Below are positions 18,331 to 32,593 of a stretch of DNA of 64,000 nucleotides, in pieces. The notes under the pieces are model-generated. The model saw only the letters and a list, made by a program, of their open reading frames with translations. It made no database searches and was not told where the DNA came from. Source of the stretch: Cladocopium goreaui. Taxonomy: Eukaryota > Sar > Dinophyceae > Suessiales > Symbiodiniaceae. The DNA lies in contig CAMXCT020001113.1 in NCBI GenBank assembly GCA_947184155.2, forward strand, positions 840,206 through 904,205, in the 5' to 3' direction. The number at the start of each line of letters is the position of its first letter. Within the stretch, counting starts at the first letter, position 1. Both the position numbers and the translations under genes were made by a program.

Positions 18331-18479
18331 AACAACTCTTTAAGACCATGAGAGCAGCAATAGAAATGTGCATCGGAGCCGGACGCACTTTTTGTAAACG
18401 TTGGCCATGAGTGTGACTCACTCAGCTAGCTAGGATCACTTTTGAAGTGTCCCACTCTGGCTGAGTCAAACATGTGCTT
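18331..18479 (-). repeat. Split direct repeat, outer copy (B2), element 1
   Basis: 149-bp outer terminal repeat beginning AACAACTCTTTAAGACC. It is repeated at 18637-18785 and, inverted, at 25266-25414 and 25572-25720. Confidence 0.93.
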
Positions 18480-18530
18480 CCCTCCCCTTTTGAGTTAGGA
18501 GAGGGCGGGTGGGGATTTCAAAATCACACC

Positions 18531-18546
18531 CTTGAGCCAAAATGGC
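18531..18546 (-). other. DinoSL-like 16-mer, element 1
   Basis: On the minus strand this reads GCCATTTTGGCTCAAG, identical to the last 16 nt of the conserved dinoflagellate spliced leader. It lies in the 157-bp middle segment (18480-18636) between the two 149-bp repeats. It is the element-1 copy of the site at 25505-25520. Confidence 0.6.
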
Positions 18547-18636
18547 CCCAGGCCAAGCTGGTTCAAGGGTTTCCCTCCCACAAACACCCCTCTCATGTCA
18601 TTTAGTTGTTACAACAACAGCTTCACTGTTTCACCC

Positions 18637-18785
18637 AACAACTCTTTAAGACCATGAGAGCAGCAATAGAAATGTGCATCGGAGCCGGACGCACTTTTTG
18701 TAAACGTTGGCCATGAGTGTGACTCACTCAGCTAGCTAGGATCACTTTTGAAGTGTCCCACTCTGGCTGAGTCAAACATGTGCTT
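18637..18785 (-). repeat. Split direct repeat, inner copy (B1), element 1
   Basis: Second 149-bp copy; the recombinase stop lies 47 bp inside it. With the middle segment it forms the B1-A2-B2 end expected when an A1 copy lies at the 5' end. Confidence 0.93.
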
Positions 18786-18831
18786 GATTGAGTCCATGAT
18801 GCCAACTTGGTCCATTCTGCGTTCGAGCGCA

Positions 18832-20418
18832 TTATGACTCCGATGAAGATGATGAAGAGGTAGAGGGCTCATCATCCAATTTCTGTTGCTTGGGCTTAAA
18901 ACATTTATTGCATTCTGGCTTGTCTGGGTCCGCTTGACTTGCAAGTGCATAGTCTGCGTGGCCACGTGCAAAATACCAGTTGCATTGGGTGCGCCATAGG
19001 TAGTGAGGACGCGTTGGTCCACTACAGGCTACCTTGTGGATCTTGCCGTAGGCAGATCTGTTAATCACAAACTCCACTGAAGCTGGCTGCTCCGATGGCG
19101 GAGCAATATCCACTGCAGCCTCGCAGTCCGCAAGGCAGCCCACGGACTGGTTCCGTAAGGAAACTGCTGCGGCTGGCGGGGAACAATTTTGCGCCTGGCT
19201 GAGGATCGCAGAAAGTTCCGCCCGGGCTGCTGCTAAAGAAGTTGTGAGAGAAGCTTCTTTTGCCAAGGAATGTAGCTGCTGAAGTGGAGCGTCGCGGATA
19301 TATATCCTGAAGCACTCCGAACCCCAGCGCCCAAATAGCTGGATCCTCCAGAGTTCGATCTGGGTCTGTGCCAGGTACACTGCGCCAGTTGCCCGGGCGC
19401 TGTGTCCGGTGAATCTCCTTGCCCCAGTGTCTGTGTGAGTAGGAAGATTCAGCTGCTGTGCCATGCATTGCATGGTGTCGGCCCATCCGCATTTGGATGA
19501 CTGCTCACCTGTGGCTGATGGGAAAACCCAGCGATCGCTGATAGCTCCCACTGCCTCTAGGTGCTCCACCATGGCATGGTATGGACACTCTGGCTGCCGG
19601 GCATTCTGTTCGCAATTACAAGAATGCGTTCGAGTTGCGCCCAGGGCTTGCCAATCCGCCTTACTGGATGGAAGCTTCCAGTGGATAAGTCTTTGGACCT
19701 TGTCGATTTCGATGTGCGACCTCTCTGCCGAGCTTGCCTCGATTTCACGAAGGAGCCACCATGATGCCAACATGACCGACCTCATCGGGAAAATTGGTCC
19801 TCCAGGAGCTGCTGGGTCCTTGTGAACTTTCAGCTTCGCTAGCTCGATCATCGGCAAAGGTTGCGCCTGTTTGGCTGGCCCTCGGCCCCTTTGGCACGCC
19901 CTTCTGGCTTGCCTAGAGGCCTGGGCAAGCTGTGCTGTCCAATCAAGTCCTCTCTCAATGTGTATCTGCTTGGCTGTATCCATGTACAGCTCTGCTGATC
20001 TATAGCCGGCCATGTCCATCGCTCCCATCACCGTGTTGATGAGGTCCGGGGACAGACGGAACGGGTCTGAGAAACCCGCCGCCCTGGCCAAGGCAGACCA
20101 CGTTGATTTCCTTGACTCGTAGGGGCCTCTGGATGTATCTGCCTTTGCTCTCTTTGTGATGTGTTCTGCACACTTTTCCGGACCTGTGGATGCGTGCCTT
20201 ATGGCGTCGTTTAGCGAGCCCCTAGCGTAAGCCTTGACACCTGGCTGTGCCAATGGTGCGGCTGCTTCGGGATGCCCGGGGTCGACGGCCCCATAGACGG
20301 GCCCCTCCTGCAATGGGCGTAGCCCTGCAGAATGGGTGGCTGGTTTTGCCTGGGGTATTCCCTGGCCCAGCCAAAACCGTGGACCTAGACTACGCTTCAT
20401 TTCGAGCCCAAAACTCAT
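18832..20418 (-). CDS. Tyrosine recombinase of DIRS-type element, copy 1
   Basis: 528 aa, ATG at 20418. Residues about 100-390 form a tyrosine recombinase/integrase core: Arg224 in WWLLREIEAS, His339 and Arg342 in TGHSARATGA, Trp365 in GRWGSECF and the nucleophile candidate Tyr373 in FRIYIRD. These are the catalytic Arg, His-x-x-Arg, Trp and Tyr of the family, all present. It would integrate the circular cDNA without making target duplications. A C-terminal Cys tract (C465, C479, C503, C506) with WRTQCNWYFA looks like a zinc-binding tail, and the protein ends in a serine run. It starts 114 bp downstream of the RT stop. The protein is identical to the copy at 23633-25219. Confidence 0.92.
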   Translation of the reverse strand: MSFGLEMKRSLGPRFWLGQGIPQAKPATHSAGLRPLQEGPVYGAVDPGHPEAAAPLAQPGVKAYARGSLNDAIRHASTGPEKCAEHITKRAKADTSRGPYESRKSTWSALARAAGFSDPFRLSPDLINTVMGAMDMAGYRSAELYMDTAKQIHIERGLDWTAQLAQASRQARRACQRGRGPAKQAQPLPMIELAKLKVHKDPAAPGGPIFPMRSVMLASWWLLREIEASSAERSHIEIDKVQRLIHWKLPSSKADWQALGATRTHSCNCEQNARQPECPYHAMVEHLEAVGAISDRWVFPSATGEQSSKCGWADTMQCMAQQLNLPTHTDTGARRFTGHSARATGAVYLAQTQIELWRIQLFGRWGSECFRIYIRDAPLQQLHSLAKEASLTTSLAAARAELSAILSQAQNCSPPAAAVSLRNQSVGCLADCEAAVDIAPPSEQPASVEFVINRSAYGKIHKVACSGPTRPHYLWRTQCNWYFARGHADYALASQADPDKPECNKCFKPKQQKLDDEPSTSSSSSSES

Positions 20419-20532
20419 ATGTTACCTACCCAAGAAAACATGCAGTGCACAGCCTTAGTTCTTATGTGAAAACCTATGCCCCCCAAACCACTTTTCCCCC
20501 TTTGAAAGATCTGGCGTACCCTTTGGTAAATG

Positions 20533-22590
20533 TCAAAACGAAGAATCCACTTGGATGGGTATGCGTGATGCAGCCCCCAGGTCTTCGTGCGGAAAACATG
20601 GTGGGGTAGGTTCAAACTGCCGGCTCAATGCATCTGCTACTTTATTGAGTTTGGTGTTCAGATGTTGAAGGATTGTGAACTCGTATATTCCCTTCGCCTG
20701 ATCTAAAGCTATTTCTCTGGCGACCATAGCCATCCCTGGCGACTTGGCCTTGCCTTTTGCTAACATGTGGAGGGCCGATATGTTGTCCGACTTGACACGA
20801 AGGATGGACCCAAGTGGAAACCTTATCAGCCAAGTCCTTGCGGCTAGTAAGAGGCACAGGGATTCCCAAAGCGCCATGTGGCTGGGGTCCCCTGGTTGGG
20901 CACCAGTACGAACGATGAACTCTTGGGGTATGATTGTGCTGAAGAACTCGACTGGTCGGTCCCCAACTATCATAATAGCCCCCAAGCCTCTGGTTGATGC
21001 GTCCGTAATAATAATGCATTTTGTCTGTTGTCTGAATGCCCTCACTACCCTGGTGAACGGAGCTGCCTTTTCTCCCAGCAAGGCGTCTATCCACTGTAAG
21101 GCTATCCCAATGCGGCGCACATGGACAACATTTCTGGTCTGCTTCGGACCGTCATTCGTTGCCAGTGCAGCCCACAGGGAATTCAAGAAAGGTCTCATGA
21201 GAGGGACCAATCCCGCCACGAAGGACAACGCGCCTGCTAGACTTTGTAGCTGTCTTCGTCCAATGACCGGCCTCCTCAGGTAGGTCTGGACTTTTGATTT
21301 CAGCTCAGCAACTTTGTCTTCAGGTATAGTTACAGATATGGTGTGGTTATCATGATCTGCTTTTATAACGGCTCCTATCCACTTCACCTCTGTTCCTGAA
21401 TCAGACTTTTCCAGTTTGAGTGGGTACCCGGCTATTTGTGACCAGAGCAGGGAGATCCCCACCCTTTCCTTGTGATAGGGGTCCGTGCAGTCAAACGTGA
21501 ATAACGGGTCGTCCACATACGTTTGCAGTCTGATGTCAGGGTTGATAGAGGCAAGGGACCTTCCAAACCACGCTGCATATCTGCCCCATAAAGTTGGAGA
21601 TGAAACTGAACCGAAAACCAGGACATCATAAACCACAATTTTCAGTGTGCCAGTTTTGTCCCTGAATGCAGCTGAAGTGAAGGCTCTGTCTTTACCCGAT
21701 GGAATGTTGTGGAAGGCATCGCGGATGTCCACTGCTAGAAACGCTGGCTTCCCCCGTTTTCGGAAAATTTCCAAAGCGTCCTCAATGGCGTCGGTGACCC
21801 TCGGCAGTAACACCCTTTCGCCTTGGGAGCATAGCTTGTTTGTGCCGCTCTCCCTCATGTCCCAAATAATCCGTGCCTTCCTAATCACTCCCTCAGGTGT
21901 TTGTTTCTCCTTGACCAACAGACCCAGTTTGTTTAATACGGGTTTTATTCCGATTTCCCTTTCCGCAGCAGCCATGTTGGGGTAGACTGAACAGAAACCT
22001 TTTGATGCAGCCTCATCAATAAGTTTGTGTAGATCTTCTTCCCACTCGACGGCTGATGGATGGTTATCCCAGTTTTCGAATGACCTTTGTAATTGTTCTG
22101 CTGCCTCAGCTTCCCATTCAACCTCCTTAACCACGGGGAATATGCCCGTACAAGGAATGGGTTCGGTGAAGCCTAGGGGAGCGCCCGACCTCAACCACTG
22201 CACCAGCACCGGGGAATCTGGGTCCCCACTTATTCTTCCCCAAGCATCAAAAATCTGAGGTTGGAGTGGTGTGCATGCTTTTGCAGTACTAGGTTGAATG
22301 GTTCCTGGGGACAACGAACATACCAGTTGCCTAAGCTTGTCAATAAGCTGAGCTGAAATCGGAGCTGCATGTCCACCCGTTAAAATTTGGTCGACTAGCG
22401 ATTTGACAGAGGGGTGAGATGTTGCTTGCTTGAGAAGCTTGAAGACGGCCCTGCCCGCCATGTCGGATTTTGGGATCCTCCTGATGGACTTTAGCGGGTT
22501 GCGCATCCCCCCAATGGCTTCGGCATTCTCAATCTCCCTCTGTCTCATCGCTTGGTCCTCTAAGACTGGTCCTGTCGGTCCGGCACTCAC
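20533..22590 (-). CDS. Reverse transcriptase/RNase H of DIRS-type element
   Basis: About 685 aa. RT spans roughly residues 215-410: motif A AVDIRDAFHNIP (Asp near 288), motif B-like FGSVSSPTLWGRY, motif C TYVDD (357-361). RNase H follows at about 525-660 with D530 in IIITDAS, E576 in ALWESLC, D602 in VKSDN and D653 in VADALSR, a complete D-E-D-D set. No methyltransferase domain is seen. There is no ATG at the left limit; the frame runs back through GTG and GGC into an in-frame TGA that ends the Gag-like frame. The first internal ATG is at about residue 15. It copies the element RNA into cDNA. Confidence 0.93.
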   Translation of the reverse strand: MSAGPTGPVLEDQAMRQREIENAEAIGGMRNPLKSIRRIPKSDMAGRAVFKLLKQATSHPSVKSLVDQILTGGHAAPISAQLIDKLRQLVCSLSPGTIQPSTAKACTPLQPQIFDAWGRISGDPDSPVLVQWLRSGAPLGFTEPIPCTGIFPVVKEVEWEAEAAEQLQRSFENWDNHPSAVEWEEDLHKLIDEAASKGFCSVYPNMAAAEREIGIKPVLNKLGLLVKEKQTPEGVIRKARIIWDMRESGTNKLCSQGERVLLPRVTDAIEDALEIFRKRGKPAFLAVDIRDAFHNIPSGKDRAFTSAAFRDKTGTLKIVVYDVLVFGSVSSPTLWGRYAAWFGRSLASINPDIRLQTYVDDPLFTFDCTDPYHKERVGISLLWSQIAGYPLKLEKSDSGTEVKWIGAVIKADHDNHTISVTIPEDKVAELKSKVQTYLRRPVIGRRQLQSLAGALSFVAGLVPLMRPFLNSLWAALATNDGPKQTRNVVHVRRIGIALQWIDALLGEKAAPFTRVVRAFRQQTKCIIITDASTRGLGAIMIVGDRPVEFFSTIIPQEFIVRTGAQPGDPSHMALWESLCLLLAARTWLIRFPLGSILRVKSDNISALHMLAKGKAKSPGMAMVAREIALDQAKGIYEFTILQHLNTKLNKVADALSRQFEPTPPCFPHEDLGAASRIPIQVDSSF

Positions 22591-22593
22591 GCC

Positions 22594-23139
22594 TCACTTC
22601 GCTGCCTTCCTGAGACTCCCCTCGCGATGCTTCATCACTCGGGGAAGGTCCGCCTTCTCCATCGCCTCTGCCAAGGCCTTGTTCAAGGCTGGCGGGTACT
22701 CACTCAAAGCTTTGGATGCTCGCTCCTTTTCTCCTCTGACTGTCCTCCACCTCTGGACCAAGGACTCATGTGGTGAAACGTAGGTCTCTCCGTTTGGTCT
22801 GGTCCATTCCTTCGGAGGATGGTTGCACCTCCTCCCCTTGATTTGTCCAAGGGGAAGGGAGTCCGTCTGAATCCTTGTGGGCTTCGTTGTTTCTGCTCCA
22901 AATTGGCATTGGTCGAACAACGCCTTTTCCACCAGCGCGTGACCAGTCATCTCTTTGAACCAGCTCGTTTTCCACATGTCGAGTTTCTCCTTGTGGTCTG
23001 GATTTTCTATCCAGTAGGCCGCTCTGACGCGCCTCACTTCTCTCGTCACGTGTGTGGAAAATTCGATGAGATGATTTGCCTCCTTGAGCTGTTTTCTCTC
23101 CTCCGAGGAAAGGCTTTTGAGAGGCAGCCCATCCGGATG
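22594..23139 (-). CDS. Gag-like frame of DIRS-type element, 5' truncated by gap
   Basis: Partial frame running out of the gap and ending with TGA at 22594-22596. It is charged and Trp-containing (EVRRVRAAYWIENPDHKEK, DMWKTSWFKEMTGHALVEK), consistent in position with the nucleocapsid-like first ORF of DIRS elements, although I recognise no zinc knuckle. The TGA is in the same frame as the RT frame. Anything read to the right of 23139 comes from the other side of an unknown-size gap and should not be added to this protein. Confidence 0.7.
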   Translation of the reverse strand, partial: HPDGLPLKSLSSEERKQLKEANHLIEFSTHVTREVRRVRAAYWIENPDHKEKLDMWKTSWFKEMTGHALVEKALFDQCQFGAETTKPTRIQTDSLPLGQIKGRRCNHPPKEWTRPNGETYVSPHESLVQRWRTVRGEKERASKALSEYPPALNKALAEAMEKADLPRVMKHREGSLRKAAK

Positions 23140-23239
23140 NNNNNNNNNNNNNNNNNNNNNNNNNNNNNNNNNNNNNNNNNNNNNNNNNNNNNNNNNNNNN
23201 NNNNNNNNNNNNNNNNNNNNNNNNNNNNNNNNNNNNNNN
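23140..23239. other. Assembly gap (100 N)
   Basis: 100 Ns, the usual placeholder for unknown length, at the centre of the inverted pair of DIRS-type copies. Confidence 0.99.
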
Positions 23240-23517
23240 GGTCCATCCTTCGTGTCAAGTCGGACAACATATCGGCCCTCCACATGTTAGCAAAAGGCAA
23301 GGCCAAGTCGCCAGGGATGGCTATGGTCGCCAGAGAAATAGCTTTAGATCAGGCGAAGGGAATATACGAGTTCACAATCCTTCAACATCTGAACACCAAA
23401 CTCAATAAAGTAGCAGATGCATTGAGCCGGCAGTTTGAACCTACCCCACCATGTTTTCCGCACGAAGACCTGGGGGCTGCATCACGCATACCCATCCAAG
23501 TGGATTCTTCGTTTTGA
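23240..23517 (+). CDS. RNase H C-terminus of DIRS-type element, copy 2 (partial)
   Basis: Enters from the gap at SILRVKSDNISALHM and ends with the same last residues and stop as the RT frame of copy 1. The third and fourth RNase H aspartates (KSDN, VADALSR) are present; RT and Gag are lost in the gap. Confidence 0.88.
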
Positions 23518-23632
23518 CATTTACCAAAGGGTAACGCCAGATCTTTCAAAGGGGGAAAAGTGGTTTGGGGGGCATAGGTTTTCACATAAGAACTGAGGCT
23601 GTGCACTGCATGTTTTCTTGGGTAGGTAACAT

Positions 23633-25219
23633 ATGAGTTTTGGGCTCGAAATGAAGCGTAGTCTAGGTCCACGGTTTTGGCTGGGCCAGGGAATACCCCA
23701 GGCAAAACCAGCCACCCATTCTGCAGGGCTACGCCCATTGCAGGAGGGGCCCGTCTATGGGGCCGTCGACCCCGGGCATCCCGAAGCAGCCGCACCATTG
23801 GCACAGCCAGGTGTCAAGGCTTACGCTAGGGGCTCGCTAAACGACGCCATAAGGCACGCATCCACAGGTCCGGAAAAGTGTGCAGAACACATCACAAAGA
23901 GAGCAAAGGCAGATACATCCAGAGGCCCCTACGAGTCAAGGAAATCAACGTGGTCTGCCTTGGCCAGGGCGGCGGGTTTCTCAGACCCGTTCCGTCTGTC
24001 CCCGGACCTCATCAACACGGTGATGGGAGCGATGGACATGGCCGGCTATAGATCAGCAGAGCTGTACATGGATACAGCCAAGCAGATACACATTGAGAGA
24101 GGACTTGATTGGACGGCACAGCTTGCCCAGGCCTCTAGGCAAGCCAGAAGGGCGTGCCAAAGGGGCCGAGGACCAGCCAAACAGGCGCAACCTTTGCCGA
24201 TGATCGAGCTAGCGAAGCTGAAAGTTCACAAGGACCCAGCAGCTCCTGGAGGACCAATTTTCCCGATGAGGTCGGTCATGTTGGCATCATGGTGGCTCCT
24301 TCGTGAAATCGAGGCAAGCTCGGCAGAGAGGTCGCACATCGAAATCGACAAGGTCCAAAGACTTATCCACTGGAAGCTTCCATCCAGTAAGGCGGATTGG
24401 CAAGCCCTGGGCGCAACTCGAACGCATTCTTGTAATTGCGAACAGAATGCCCGGCAGCCAGAGTGTCCATACCATGCCATGGTGGAGCACCTAGAGGCAG
24501 TGGGAGCTATCAGCGATCGCTGGGTTTTCCCATCAGCCACAGGTGAGCAGTCATCCAAATGCGGATGGGCCGACACCATGCAATGCATGGCACAGCAGCT
24601 GAATCTTCCTACTCACACAGACACTGGGGCAAGGAGATTCACCGGACACAGCGCCCGGGCAACTGGCGCAGTGTACCTGGCACAGACCCAGATCGAACTC
24701 TGGAGGATCCAGCTATTTGGGCGCTGGGGTTCGGAGTGCTTCAGGATATATATCCGCGACGCTCCACTTCAGCAGCTACATTCCTTGGCAAAAGAAGCTT
24801 CTCTCACAACTTCTTTAGCAGCAGCCCGGGCGGAACTTTCTGCGATCCTCAGCCAGGCGCAAAATTGTTCCCCGCCAGCCGCAGCAGTTTCCTTACGGAA
24901 CCAGTCCGTGGGCTGCCTTGCGGACTGCGAGGCTGCAGTGGATATTGCTCCGCCATCGGAGCAGCCAGCTTCAGTGGAGTTTGTGATTAACAGATCTGCC
25001 TACGGCAAGATCCACAAGGTAGCCTGTAGTGGACCAACGCGTCCTCACTACCTATGGCGCACCCAATGCAACTGGTATTTTGCACGTGGCCACGCAGACT
25101 ATGCACTTGCAAGTCAAGCGGACCCAGACAAGCCAGAATGCAATAAATGTTTTAAGCCCAAGCAACAGAAATTGGATGATGAGCCCTCTACCTCTTCATC
25201 ATCTTCATCGGAGTCATAA
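23633..25219 (+). CDS. Tyrosine recombinase of DIRS-type element, copy 2
   Basis: 528 aa, identical in predicted sequence to the 18832-20418 protein, with the same Arg224, His339-x-x-Arg342, Trp365 and Tyr373 set and the Cys-rich tail. Two intact identical copies mean a very recent event or an assembly duplication. Confidence 0.92.
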   Translation: MSFGLEMKRSLGPRFWLGQGIPQAKPATHSAGLRPLQEGPVYGAVDPGHPEAAAPLAQPGVKAYARGSLNDAIRHASTGPEKCAEHITKRAKADTSRGPYESRKSTWSALARAAGFSDPFRLSPDLINTVMGAMDMAGYRSAELYMDTAKQIHIERGLDWTAQLAQASRQARRACQRGRGPAKQAQPLPMIELAKLKVHKDPAAPGGPIFPMRSVMLASWWLLREIEASSAERSHIEIDKVQRLIHWKLPSSKADWQALGATRTHSCNCEQNARQPECPYHAMVEHLEAVGAISDRWVFPSATGEQSSKCGWADTMQCMAQQLNLPTHTDTGARRFTGHSARATGAVYLAQTQIELWRIQLFGRWGSECFRIYIRDAPLQQLHSLAKEASLTTSLAAARAELSAILSQAQNCSPPAAAVSLRNQSVGCLADCEAAVDIAPPSEQPASVEFVINRSAYGKIHKVACSGPTRPHYLWRTQCNWYFARGHADYALASQADPDKPECNKCFKPKQQKLDDEPSTSSSSSSES

Positions 25220-25265
25220 TGCGCTCGAACGCAGAATGGACCAAGTTGGCATCATGGACTCAATC

Positions 25266-25414
25266 AAGCACATGTTTGACTCAGCCAGAGTGGGACACTT
25301 CAAAAGTGATCCTAGCTAGCTGAGTGAGTCACACTCATGGCCAACGTTTACAAAAAGTGCGTCCGGCTCCGATGCACATTTCTATTGCTGCCCTCATGGT
25401 CTTAAAGAGTTGTT
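25266..25414 (+). repeat. Split direct repeat, inner copy (B1), element 2
   Basis: 149 bp, starting AAGCACATGTTTGACTCAG, 46 bp after the recombinase stop. It differs from the outer copy by one base at 25392 (CCC for CTC). Confidence 0.93.
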
Positions 25415-25571
25415 GGGTGAAACAGTGAAGCTGTTGTTGTAACAACTAAATGACATGAGAGGGGTGTTTGTGGGAGGGAAACCCTTGAACCAGCTTGGCC
25501 TGGGGCCATTTTGGCTCAAGGGTGTGATTTTGAAATCCCCACCCGCCCTCTCCTAACTCAAAAGGGGAGGG
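25415..25571 (+). repeat. Middle segment (A2) of split direct repeat, element 2
   Basis: 157 bp between the two 149-bp repeats. In split-direct-repeat elements this segment copies the 5' end of the element, which here lies in the gap. It contains an imperfect hairpin (about 25480-25522) whose right arm is the DinoSL-like 16-mer, and ends in a purine-rich AAAAGGGGAGGG. Confidence 0.75.
25505..25520 (+). other. DinoSL-like 16-mer, element 2
   Basis: GCCATTTTGGCTCAAG, identical to the last 16 nt of the 22-nt dinoflagellate trans-spliced leader, followed by GG. A chance exact 16-mer match in a window this size is improbable (order 1 in 30,000), though it sits in an inverted repeat (left arm CCCTTGAACCAGCTTGGCC), which could have produced it independently. 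A relict leader would mean a trans-spliced element transcript was reverse transcribed. Confidence 0.6.
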
Positions 25572-25720
25572 AAGCACATGTTTGACTCAGCCAGAGTGGG
25601 ACACTTCAAAAGTGATCCTAGCTAGCTGAGTGAGTCACACTCATGGCCAACGTTTACAAAAAGTGCGTCCGGCTCCGATGCACATTTCTATTGCTGCTCT
25701 CATGGTCTTAAAGAGTTGTT
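25572..25720 (+). repeat. Split direct repeat, outer copy (B2), element 2
   Basis: 149 bp, right terminus of the element at GAGTTGTT (25720). The boundary is set by the loss of similarity to copy 1. Confidence 0.93.
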
Positions 25721-30281: not shown

Positions 30282-32593
30282 TCAGTTCTCGCAAGTAGGT
30301 ATAGGAGGGCCTTTGCGTAAAAGCTCCTCCACTTGCTCCGTGAACCCCAGCAAGATGAGATTCTTCAGTTTGCGGGCACGCGTCAGCATGACATAGATGG
30401 CTAGCCACCAGTCCGCATCCTCTAGGCCACCACCACGACGCAAATCAACCAGCACACCTCCGTCCAAAGTCAAGCCTTGCGCGCTGTAAGCAGTGCGCAG
30501 CATGCCATGCAAAAGAGGAAACTGCCAGCGAATCACTTCAATTTTCTCGGTTTCCTCGCCTAGCTTCAAATCAATTTGAACTCTGCATGCACCAATTCCA
30601 CAAAGAACAATGTCTTTGCGTCAGTTGTGTGATCGGCCACATTCTGAAACTTTTCTTCCCACGTCTGCAACAGAGCATCTTCCATGGGCGAATTCTTTCC
30701 TTTAAGTAATTTCACCCATATACCTTTGGCCATGTAGTCCGGAAAAAAATGACAGAATCCAGGTTCACGACGGTCCAGGCGCTTCTGATCTTCATGGTGC
30801 AAATCCACTTTTACTACCACTGCCAGTTTGTCTTTAACCAATCCAAGGTGTGGAGCCAAGACATCCGCCAGTCGCACAACCATGTTCTCGTGCACCAGTA
30901 GCATGCCTTGCAATTTGCCAGTGCGATGCGGGTTTGGAACAGTGAGCAGTTGATGTGTCAGCTGCTTGTCTATGGCTTTATTTTTTCTGGAATGCCTTTG
31001 GTCAGCAGCTTGCAAACAAAATAACGGCACATCCAGGTCTTGCGCATCTCGATTTGCCCGTTCCACCATGCTGCGAGCAATTTTCTCCCAATACATTCCA
31101 ATGACGTGACGTGACCATGCTTGAACAAGTCCGTGGTTAGTTCTTTCTTGCAATTTTCGATTTTGCGAGTGCGCAGCTGAGCCAAGTGATCCTCGGACAA
31201 AGGAGCAGCAGGCGTGCACGTGCGCATGGCTGTTGTGATTTCTGGCAGGTGAGCATCCAGAAACCGCTTCGACTTCTTCAAATGAATCACTGTATCAATG
31301 GTCATCAATGGCGCCTGGGCAGCATGGTGTTCTGTCTGCACTCTGTGCGGCATTTTGCGGATCAGCTCTTCGAGATTGTCAGCTAAGGAGATCTCGTTGG
31401 CAGGCTTGATCTGCAAAAAATCACCTGCAATCAGCAAAATTGGTATGTGTCCCATGAGCTCTCCTGGGTGGAAATAGCTGGCTGGATCAAGGCCTTCATC
31501 TTGACGGGCGCGCATGCTGCGGTAAAGCATCATGTTTTCCACTGCAGCTGGCACCAAACTGATTTCATCTTGAATGATTAAAATTTTCGGCTGCCAGCGT
31601 TGTTTCATCTCTTGCTCTTTTGTCTTCAAGGCCAAATGCTTGTTGCGCAAACTGGCTACACGATACGAGCAAGCAGTATGACATGTTCGCGCGCGCGATA
31701 GACATCATTGGAAATGGCATCCGATTGGGCATGGCTGAAGGTGGCAATCATGTATCGCTCTTCTTCTCCGGGCCTGGCTGGAAAAAAGTGACAAAAAACA
31801 TCCAGCATGAGCTCCAAAATGATTGTCGTCTTGCCAGTGCCACCGGCGCCAATCAAAAGGCATGCGTGCTGCGCGCGTTTTCGCAAAGGTATTTTGTTCT
31901 CTTCTTCCTGTAAAGCGACATCCATTGCCTCACCAAACCATCTGCAAGCAGACAATTGCTCCGGCGCCAGCTTGAATCCAGCGGCAGACTTTTCAAACGC
32001 AGCAACCTTCCGCGCCATCGCTGCAGATGGCTTGCTAAAGGTACGCCATTCTGCTTCTGGCATCGCGACATCACTGTTTGCAGCCAACTCTCCTGCGCGC
32101 TCTGCGCAGTCGCTCGTAGCAGCCCGGTCCGCCGACAAGCGGCTGAGGCCCATGCTATCATTTGTCATGGCGGCGCGCTGAGCATCCAGTAGCGGCTGCG
32201 TGATCATGGGCACTTTCTCTTTCAACCTCAGTTGTTCTGCTCGTGGATTCACTGCAGTGCCACTCGCGGCTTGCAGGCCGCAGTTCTATGCAACGCTTCT
32301 TCATCCCCTGTCAAGGGCAAAAGGCCGACAGAAATCATGTCGCGCACAAACTTGGTGGAATCTTCCCAACGTTGAATCTCTTCTAGCTGCGGTGCAATGA
32401 AATCTCCAATCTCGAAGAAGGGCGTTCCCTCAGCACAAGCGCCTTTGGCGAATAGCAAGAAGGATTTATTCGATCTATGCGGCAATCTCTCTGCATAGTT
32501 CTCAAAGGCAACGTCTACACCAAACAAAAGCTGCGCAAATTTCACAGTGTCATCCCAACTCGTGACACCAAATGGCCATGATCTCTTTGCCAT
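30282..32593 (-). pseudogene. Pif1-like helicase, broken by frameshifts
   Basis: Read leftward from the ATG at 32593, five overlapping frames carry one continuous homology. Walker A is LLIGAGGTGKTT, Walker B is IIQDEIS, motif III is LIAGDFLQIKP, and the end carries AYSAQGLTLDGG and VMLTRARKL, the motif V-VI pattern of superfamily 1B Pif1 helicases, including those of Helitron transposons. Frame changes occur near 32250, 31655, 31100 and 30568, so no intact protein results unless unusual introns remove the breaks. I see no HUH nuclease (Rep) domain, so Helitron origin is a guess. Codon bias is preserved, so decay is recent. N-terminal 115 residues (MAKRSWPFGVTSWDD) are unrecognised. Confidence 0.8.

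Follow-up and report, generated by a model that had tools for sequence, protein, structure and literature searches.

Split direct repeats have been described in Ngaro-like, PAT-like and VIPER-like elements, where they are arranged as A1 ... B1 A2 B2 (PMC6681497), the order that is also found here. VIPER, like the element studied here, lives in trans-splicing hosts, and annealing between the repeats during reverse transcription is part of a published model for such elements (PMC6681497). The SymbioDIRS elements described from Symbiodinium (de Mendoza et al. 2018, PMC5890265), as presented in the main text of that paper, share with the element described below the A-coding-B-A-B arrangement of repeats and the reverse transcriptase; they encode a tyrosine recombinase, and the element below has a recombinase-like ORF. 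Dinoflagellate genomes are also known to contain DinoSL relics, in which genomic CCATTTTGGCTCAAG derives from the leader on reverse-transcribed mRNA (PMC12014239, PMC7245778, PMC6050394), and stacked relics of this kind are a known mark of dinoflagellate retroposed genes (PMC12014239).

The element in the window

The window is the whole stretch of 64,000 nucleotides of Cladocopium goreaui DNA that was analysed. The original prediction placed the last 16 nt of the 22-nt dinoflagellate spliced leader in the middle segment of the 3′ repeat block of a DIRS-type retrotransposon. In agreement with this, the 16-mer GCCATTTTGGCTCAAG was found at 25505-25520 on the plus strand, between 149-nt repeats and at positions 91-106 of the 157-nt A2 segment. 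The features of the element are as follows.

18331..18479, minus strand: B2 repeat of copy 1, direct repeat
18480..18636, minus strand: A2 segment of copy 1, identical to the A2 of copy 2
18531..18546, minus strand: putative leader-derived core of copy 1, from the pattern search of the window
18637..18785, minus strand: B1 repeat of copy 1, direct repeat
18832..20418, minus strand: tyrosine recombinase-like ORF of copy 1, same protein as in copy 2
20533..22590, minus strand: reverse transcriptase / RNase H ORF, 685 aa (PF00078, E 2.3e-11)
22594..23139, minus strand: end of the gag-like upstream ORF, truncated by the gap (ORF list)
23140..23239, no strand: scaffold gap of 100 N separating the inverted copies
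23240..23517, plus strand: 3′ end of the reverse transcriptase / RNase H ORF of copy 2, truncated by the gap
23633..25219, plus strand: tyrosine recombinase-like ORF of copy 2, 528 aa; weak PF00589 matches in relatives
25266..25414, plus strand: B1 repeat of copy 2, 149-nt direct repeat, 99% identical to 25572-25720
25415..25571, plus strand: A2 segment of copy 2, 157 nt, flanked by B1 and B2
25505..25520, plus strand: putative leader-derived core of copy 2, last 16 nt of the 22-nt leader
25572..25720, plus strand: B2 repeat of copy 2, 149-nt direct repeat, right end of the element

The right part of one element occurs twice in the window, in inverted orientation (18331-20810 vs 25720-23240, 99.8% identical), and the 16-mer therefore has a second site at 18531-18546 on the minus strand. 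When up to two mismatches were allowed, the window contained 2 sites, compared with 0.03 expected in shuffles. The near-identical element ends within 18331-25720 face outward about the 100-N gap, which may reflect either a head-to-head insertion or a scaffolding artefact.

The A1 segment is absent from the 64-kb window. It was found in three whole copies of the same family elsewhere in the genome (L024, L026 and L030), which show the layout of the DIRS order with A1 on the left and B1-A2-B2 on the right; the reverse transcriptase expected of that order is encoded by the window ORF with the PF00078 match. In all three copies the 16-mer is present in both A segments and A1 equals positions 1-125 of the 157-nt A2, so that the middle segment duplicates the 5′ end of the element as foreseen. 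The imperfect hairpin of which the 16-mer was said to form one arm is likewise real in the 157-nt A2 of the window (z = -3.4).

The recombinase-like ORF of the window gave no PDB match (copy 2) and no Pfam match (copy 1). It is 55% identical to an ORF of L027, and the PF00589 matches of its relatives L027 (E 3e-4) and L018 (E 2e-3) are both under the curated cut-off; an HSAR motif is present in the recombinase-like ORF of the L024 copy. The gag-like ORF, for which a Pfam search returned no match, is 99% identical to an ORF of L024 and 51% identical to one of L027. No relatives of the element's reverse transcriptase and recombinase were found in the viral contig set, and a reverse transcriptase search of the general genome contig set gave 21 pattern matches, none of which was confirmed. 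Elsewhere in the window, at 30566-32285 on the minus strand, fragments of a P-loop, helicase-like protein were recognized by eye, one of them with weak AAA matches under the cut-off.

Genome-wide counts of the 16-mer

The survey was carried out on the window's own assembly (1,165,616,438 bases in 6202 contigs); for patterns with more than 100 places, the first 100 were listed individually. The exact 16-mer has 746 matches and its reversed control has 0, which makes a chance origin of the core very unlikely. The 16-mer is preceded by A at 301 of these sites and by another base at 445, and the former resemble leader genes or retrogene relics. Relics stacked 15 nt apart were present, among the matches listed, on contigs C324, C796, C846, C856, C1017 and C1147. 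The leader followed by GTA occurs at 6 genomic sites, which may be leader RNA genes, and two of the three that were read have common downstream sequence. Of 24 unpaired sites read, 12 were preceded by A and 12 were not.

The cores of the window belong to neither of these classes. They continue with GGTGTG, where a spliced-leader RNA gene has a GT/GC donor after the leader, and the preceding base is not the A of a retrogene leader relic (DinoRL), in which the leader has its AG at nt 6-7 and lies ahead of a host gene. Across 22 groups, the base directly after the core is A in 8, G in 7, T in 4 and C in 3.

Two further observations were made in these searches. Multiple TCCATTTTGGCTCAAG sites lie on one strand of contig C191 (G000:C191:445133-449932), mostly about 630 bases apart, and are perhaps a tandem array of an element end block. 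Six viral contigs contain the 16-mer, five without the CCGTAG context and one with it. The latter (L001:1936-2913, IMGVR_UViG_3300045993_001077) is giant-virus-like with 22% GC and carries two leaders with CCGTAG on the minus strand, one of them just before a GC-richer ORF of 254 aa with only a Pfam match below the cut-off; this looks like a processed dinoflagellate-type mRNA within a viral contig.

The core in A1 and A2 of other families

Twenty loci were fetched around paired 16-mer sites among the matches listed, the presence of paired sites being the basis of their choice. Two same-strand sites were 6.4-9.2 kb apart in 19 of the 20 loci and 311 bases apart in the remaining one (L034). In all 19 loci with the larger spacing the core is contained in an A1 + A2 direct repeat, whose ungapped homology extends from 14-195 bases before the core start to 31-65 bases after it. 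The core is 57-111 nt inside A in 17 of the 19 loci. It is unlikely to be a recombination site, as the left end of A1 is 57-195 nt away in 18 of the 19; in the other locus (L020) this distance is 14 nt and the A1-A2 homology is partial.

Besides the three copies of the window family, the paired loci represent about nine families, and their repeats have no match to those of the window. In seven of the nine, reverse transcriptase and/or recombinase matches were obtained, with 22-62% identity to the proteins of the window across the matched stretches; the match of L021 to the reverse transcriptase profile is weak. Among ten representative families, B repeats are present in nine (the exception is L016), and the first ATG follows the core at 19-58 nt in seven (76 nt in L021, 250 nt in L023 and 158 nt in L032). 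The A1-A2 homology ends 0-26 nt before the first ATG in 6 of the 10 families, and 14 nt past it in L018. Such a spread of the core over many families is no local accident.

The sequences on either side of the core were compared using 39 contexts with the exact 16-mer, which fell into 22 families after those preceded by A had been dropped. The mean anchored identity between groups was 27% on each side, with a maximum of 45-48%. A comparison of core and flanks within a family (24 sequences) gave no telling excess of conservation over the rest of A; the A segment as a whole varies so little there that the comparison is uninformative. In one copy (L064), 7 bases of the core have been lost.

The L016 family (6.4 kb; 40 matches scored of 177 candidates) is represented by numerous copies that closely resemble one another and carry both A1 and A2. 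No reverse transcriptase was found in it with Pfam or a custom profile and no B repeats were found; a recombinase-like motif was recognized by eye in one ORF, and the family is possibly a non-autonomous relative. Inspection by eye also showed a C-rich, CCCACCC-like stretch beyond the A1-A2 homology in most A2 segments of the paired-locus families, and a G-rich stretch upstream of the core in many A segments that could pair with this C-rich tail.

Elements chosen by their reverse transcriptase

Since the families above had been found through the 16-mer itself, the count was repeated from the side of the reverse transcriptase, for which the searches gave 68 and 64 matches (65 of 1154 and 62 of 1022 candidates scored). 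The census set comprised 18 reverse transcriptase elements on contigs below C489, for which the site lists are complete, and cores were sought within 6 kb on the same strand. The exact core was found on both sides in 11 of the 18 elements, one exact site in 2 and none in 5. C50 has an exact core upstream only (A1 only), and C448 has an exact site downstream only, outside its B-A-B block. A damaged core was present in A2 of four of the seven elements without two exact sites (C25, C215, C297 and C448). The seven also include C11:26875 and C176, and no block was located for C176. Absence from most other copies, which the original prediction had named as evidence against itself, is not what this genome shows.

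In addition, 12 right-end stretches were fetched from the 68 matches, five of them picked because the list showed no nearby 16-mer. A B-A-B block was found in nine (none in L083, L085 and L086), and eight of the nine blocks have the core in A2. It is exact in L076, L077 and L078; the other five have 1-3 changes. L080 has one change and L082 two, L075 and L081 each contain a single inserted base, and L079, whose core carries CTCTAG, has three changes. In L084 the core is missing from A2, and a similar sequence lies in B. Each of the eight A2 cores beat 200 of 200 shuffled 16-mers. When the A2 segments were shuffled, seven of the eight core-bearing blocks beat 1000 of 1000 shuffles, L082 was equalled by 1 of 1000 and L084 by 44 of 1000. 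The reverse transcriptase frame is open in all five elements with damaged cores (L075, L079, L080, L081 and L082). The expectation that the leader segment would be variable or absent in other copies was thus not borne out: it is generally kept across deeply divergent families and damaged in some.

Edges of the core

The 3′ edge of the core is sharp and coincides with the last base of the leader at the splice junction, with 1191 sites ending in G and 49 otherwise. The form with the last base altered, CCATTTTGGCTCAAH, has 49 sites and a control of 18. The five non-G sites that were read all end in CAAA (L090-L094, two families) and each continues with G, so that the additional A still leaves an AG.

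The 5′ edge is ragged at leader bases 7, 8 and 9. CCATTTTGGCTCAAG is preceded by a base other than G at 445 sites (control 2) and CATTTTGGCTCAAG by a base other than C at 572 (control 1). A conserved core of exactly 16 nt in which base 7 is needed is ruled out by the 445 sites with another base 7 and the 572 with another base 8, and the raggedness means that there is no single stop point. The families read lack the first 6-8 bases of the leader; GTAG is retained in L081.

None of the 20 paired loci has A as the base before the 16-mer, and this base is A at 301 other genomic 16-mers. Such an A, which would create an earlier AG, is avoided in the paired loci; L081, which belongs to the set defined by reverse transcriptase, has an A preceding the core. 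Among the 16 dinucleotides, AG is the least frequent in the 10 bases that precede the 14-base core in 28 families (103 sites). It occurs in 2 of the 28 families, compared with about 10 of 28 expected by hand calculation from the AG content of the more distant upstream sequence (54 in 28 x 34 steps); 12 AGC sites had been dropped before this count, which removes one possible position. Both the non-A base before the core and the scarcity of AG are compatible with the core ending in a 3′ splice site.

Trans-splicing as a possible step of replication

Leader addition in a trans-splicing host removes the 5′ part of a retroelement RNA, and to our knowledge the way in which retroelements in such hosts regain a complete 5′ end is an open problem. 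In the elements described here, the core is present in both A1 and A2, is kept amid flanks that cannot be aligned, and ends exactly at the 3′ splice junction of the leader. This arrangement suggests that many families of tyrosine-recombinase retrotransposons have built the addition of the host leader into their own copying. We give an even chance to the proposal that a piece of the host's spliced leader is at work in the A repeats in the form of the core, as a splice acceptor in A1 and as a landing site in A2. The broader proposal is more tentative, and we place it somewhat short of even: host trans-splicing would be obligatory for replication throughout this radiation of retrotransposons, the leader joined to each element RNA would supply the terminal homology on which strand transfer relies, a use that would keep the genomic core close to the leader.

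We infer the following cycle. The RNA made from A1 would undergo trans-splicing at the terminal AG of the core. The upstream part of A1 would be lost, and the element RNA would consist of the leader and a short 5′UTR followed by the rest of the element. On reaching the 5′ end of this RNA, reverse transcriptase would produce a cDNA whose 3′ end is complementary to the leader and 5′UTR. This end could then pair with the copy of core and 5′UTR in A2, on the 3′ side of the RNA, and its extension through upstream A2 into B1 would restore the lost promoter part, regenerate A1 from A2 and join the ends. Annealing between the repeats is taken from the published model for split-direct-repeat elements (PMC6681497); the part given to the leader is new here.

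As the first 6-8 leader bases are missing from the elements, the cDNA would need an early stop or trimming, and it may stop short of the cap region. In dinoflagellate mRNA, the cap is described as not established (PMC6027434). Full-length cDNAs of Polarella often begin at leader positions 2 and 8, and the authors propose capture at possibly methylated cytosines (PMC7245778); with a ragged 5′ edge of the core, the link to these start positions is only suggestive. Element copies in which leader base A6 is followed by the core and the family's 5′UTR were found in none of the 3 families searched, which counts against the cycle. The families with an open frame and a damaged core also count against it, as they indicate that exact renewal in each cycle would not be required. 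Further points on this side are the ragged 5′ edge, the CTCTAG of L079, the lack of a core in A2 of L084, the A that precedes the core in L081, and the within-family comparison, with its copy that has lost 7 core bases.

Hairpins and alternative explanations

Many of the cores are surrounded by potential stems. The 22-base flanking arms pair at a mean of -14.5 within groups and -8.2 when swapped between groups, and none of 20000 permutations was as good. Individually, the flank stem is striking (<=0.05) in 12 of 22 groups, and 10 have no good stem; the groups are not fully independent, as L018, L034 and L045 seem to be relatives. Inspection by eye showed that in the window family, L016 and L098 one of the arms is formed by the core. 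The proposed trans-splicing cycle has no need of these hairpins and leaves them unexplained, which counts against it. They give some weight to another explanation, in which the core, set in a hairpin, imitates the leader RNA and so attracts a protein that binds the leader, an Sm-type protein or the element's own Gag; it would act in packaging, nuclear traffic or translation, with no strand transfer on the leader. The family-specific stems that have the core as loop or arm favor it, as does the proposal of AUUUUGG in the leader exon as an Sm site (PMC6616646). However, that paper itself doubts the exon site, CTCAAG is kept as well although it is outside the proposed site, the edge at the splice junction is sharp, and nearly half of the groups have no good flank stem; we consider this explanation rather unlikely. 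The stems could also be taken to mean that the core arose by chance or by hairpin convergence, as the GCCA-TTT-TGGC of the leader might appear in any hairpin and the window core does form one arm of an imperfect one. The original prediction had allowed for this, but the arms vary from family to family while the core stays constant, so the hairpin cannot be the cause of the constancy. With 746 exact copies against 0 in the control and a 3′ edge at the leader end, this origin is already refuted by the genome counts and retains a negligible probability.

The short distance between core and first ATG in 7 of the 10 families would suit elements that encode a ready-made leader, with transcription starting near the core and giving an RNA with a leader-like 5′ end that is translated like host mRNA without trans-splicing. 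We regard this as improbable: the first 6-8 bases of the leader are absent, no element can encode a cap, the core is well inside A in 17 of the 19 loci, and the tendency to avoid an A just ahead of the core would go unexplained. Passive inheritance of a trans-spliced element RNA that was captured once, in the distant past, would account for an intact or damaged core in most of the reverse transcriptase-defined elements examined. It would not leave the flanks randomised between families (27% identity) and the core intact, and we attach equally little credence to it. Of the original idea of a leader capture tied to trans-splicing, the parts that are supported are the match to the leader up to its junction, its presence in both A1 and A2 and its sharing by many families; a one-off capture is disfavored, and the tie to trans-splicing would follow from the proposed cycle. 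Retention across divergent families points to a maintained function more than to such an event.

Comparison with known systems

In the literature searched, which included PMC11453091 and had most subscription journals outside it, no report of a leader in DIRS repeats was found. The main text of the paper on Ngaro-like, PAT-like and VIPER-like elements does not contain the term "spliced leader", and no description of a leader in the repeats was found there (PMC6681497). Neither "spliced leader" nor "splice leader" occurs in the main text on SymbioDIRS, where trans-splicing is mentioned once, with regard to the host (PMC5890265). Some SymbioDIRS carry a DNA methyltransferase domain (PMC5890265), and by eye this seems to be the case for L021 too. 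Its pol ORF (L021:954-3917), for which a Pfam search gave no match, opens with a cytosine-methyltransferase-like motif followed by reverse transcriptase, and a recombinase-like ORF is located upstream of pol, as in the published SymbioDIRS-Dnmt3 (PMC5890265).

What distinguishes the elements described here is that, family after family, their end repeats hold the leader up to its splice junction. If the proposed cycle is true, it would be a direct answer to the problem of how retroelements in trans-splicing hosts restore their ends, and the split-repeat design would gain a new use in such hosts. DinoSL relics differ from the element cores in that they stand in front of host genes, retain the A that precedes the 16-mer and may be stacked 15 nt apart, whereas the cores lack this A in all 20 paired loci and form A1/A2 pairs in 19 of them. 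If the cycle holds, the core also provides a marker by which such elements can be found and separated from leader relics in retrogene counts.
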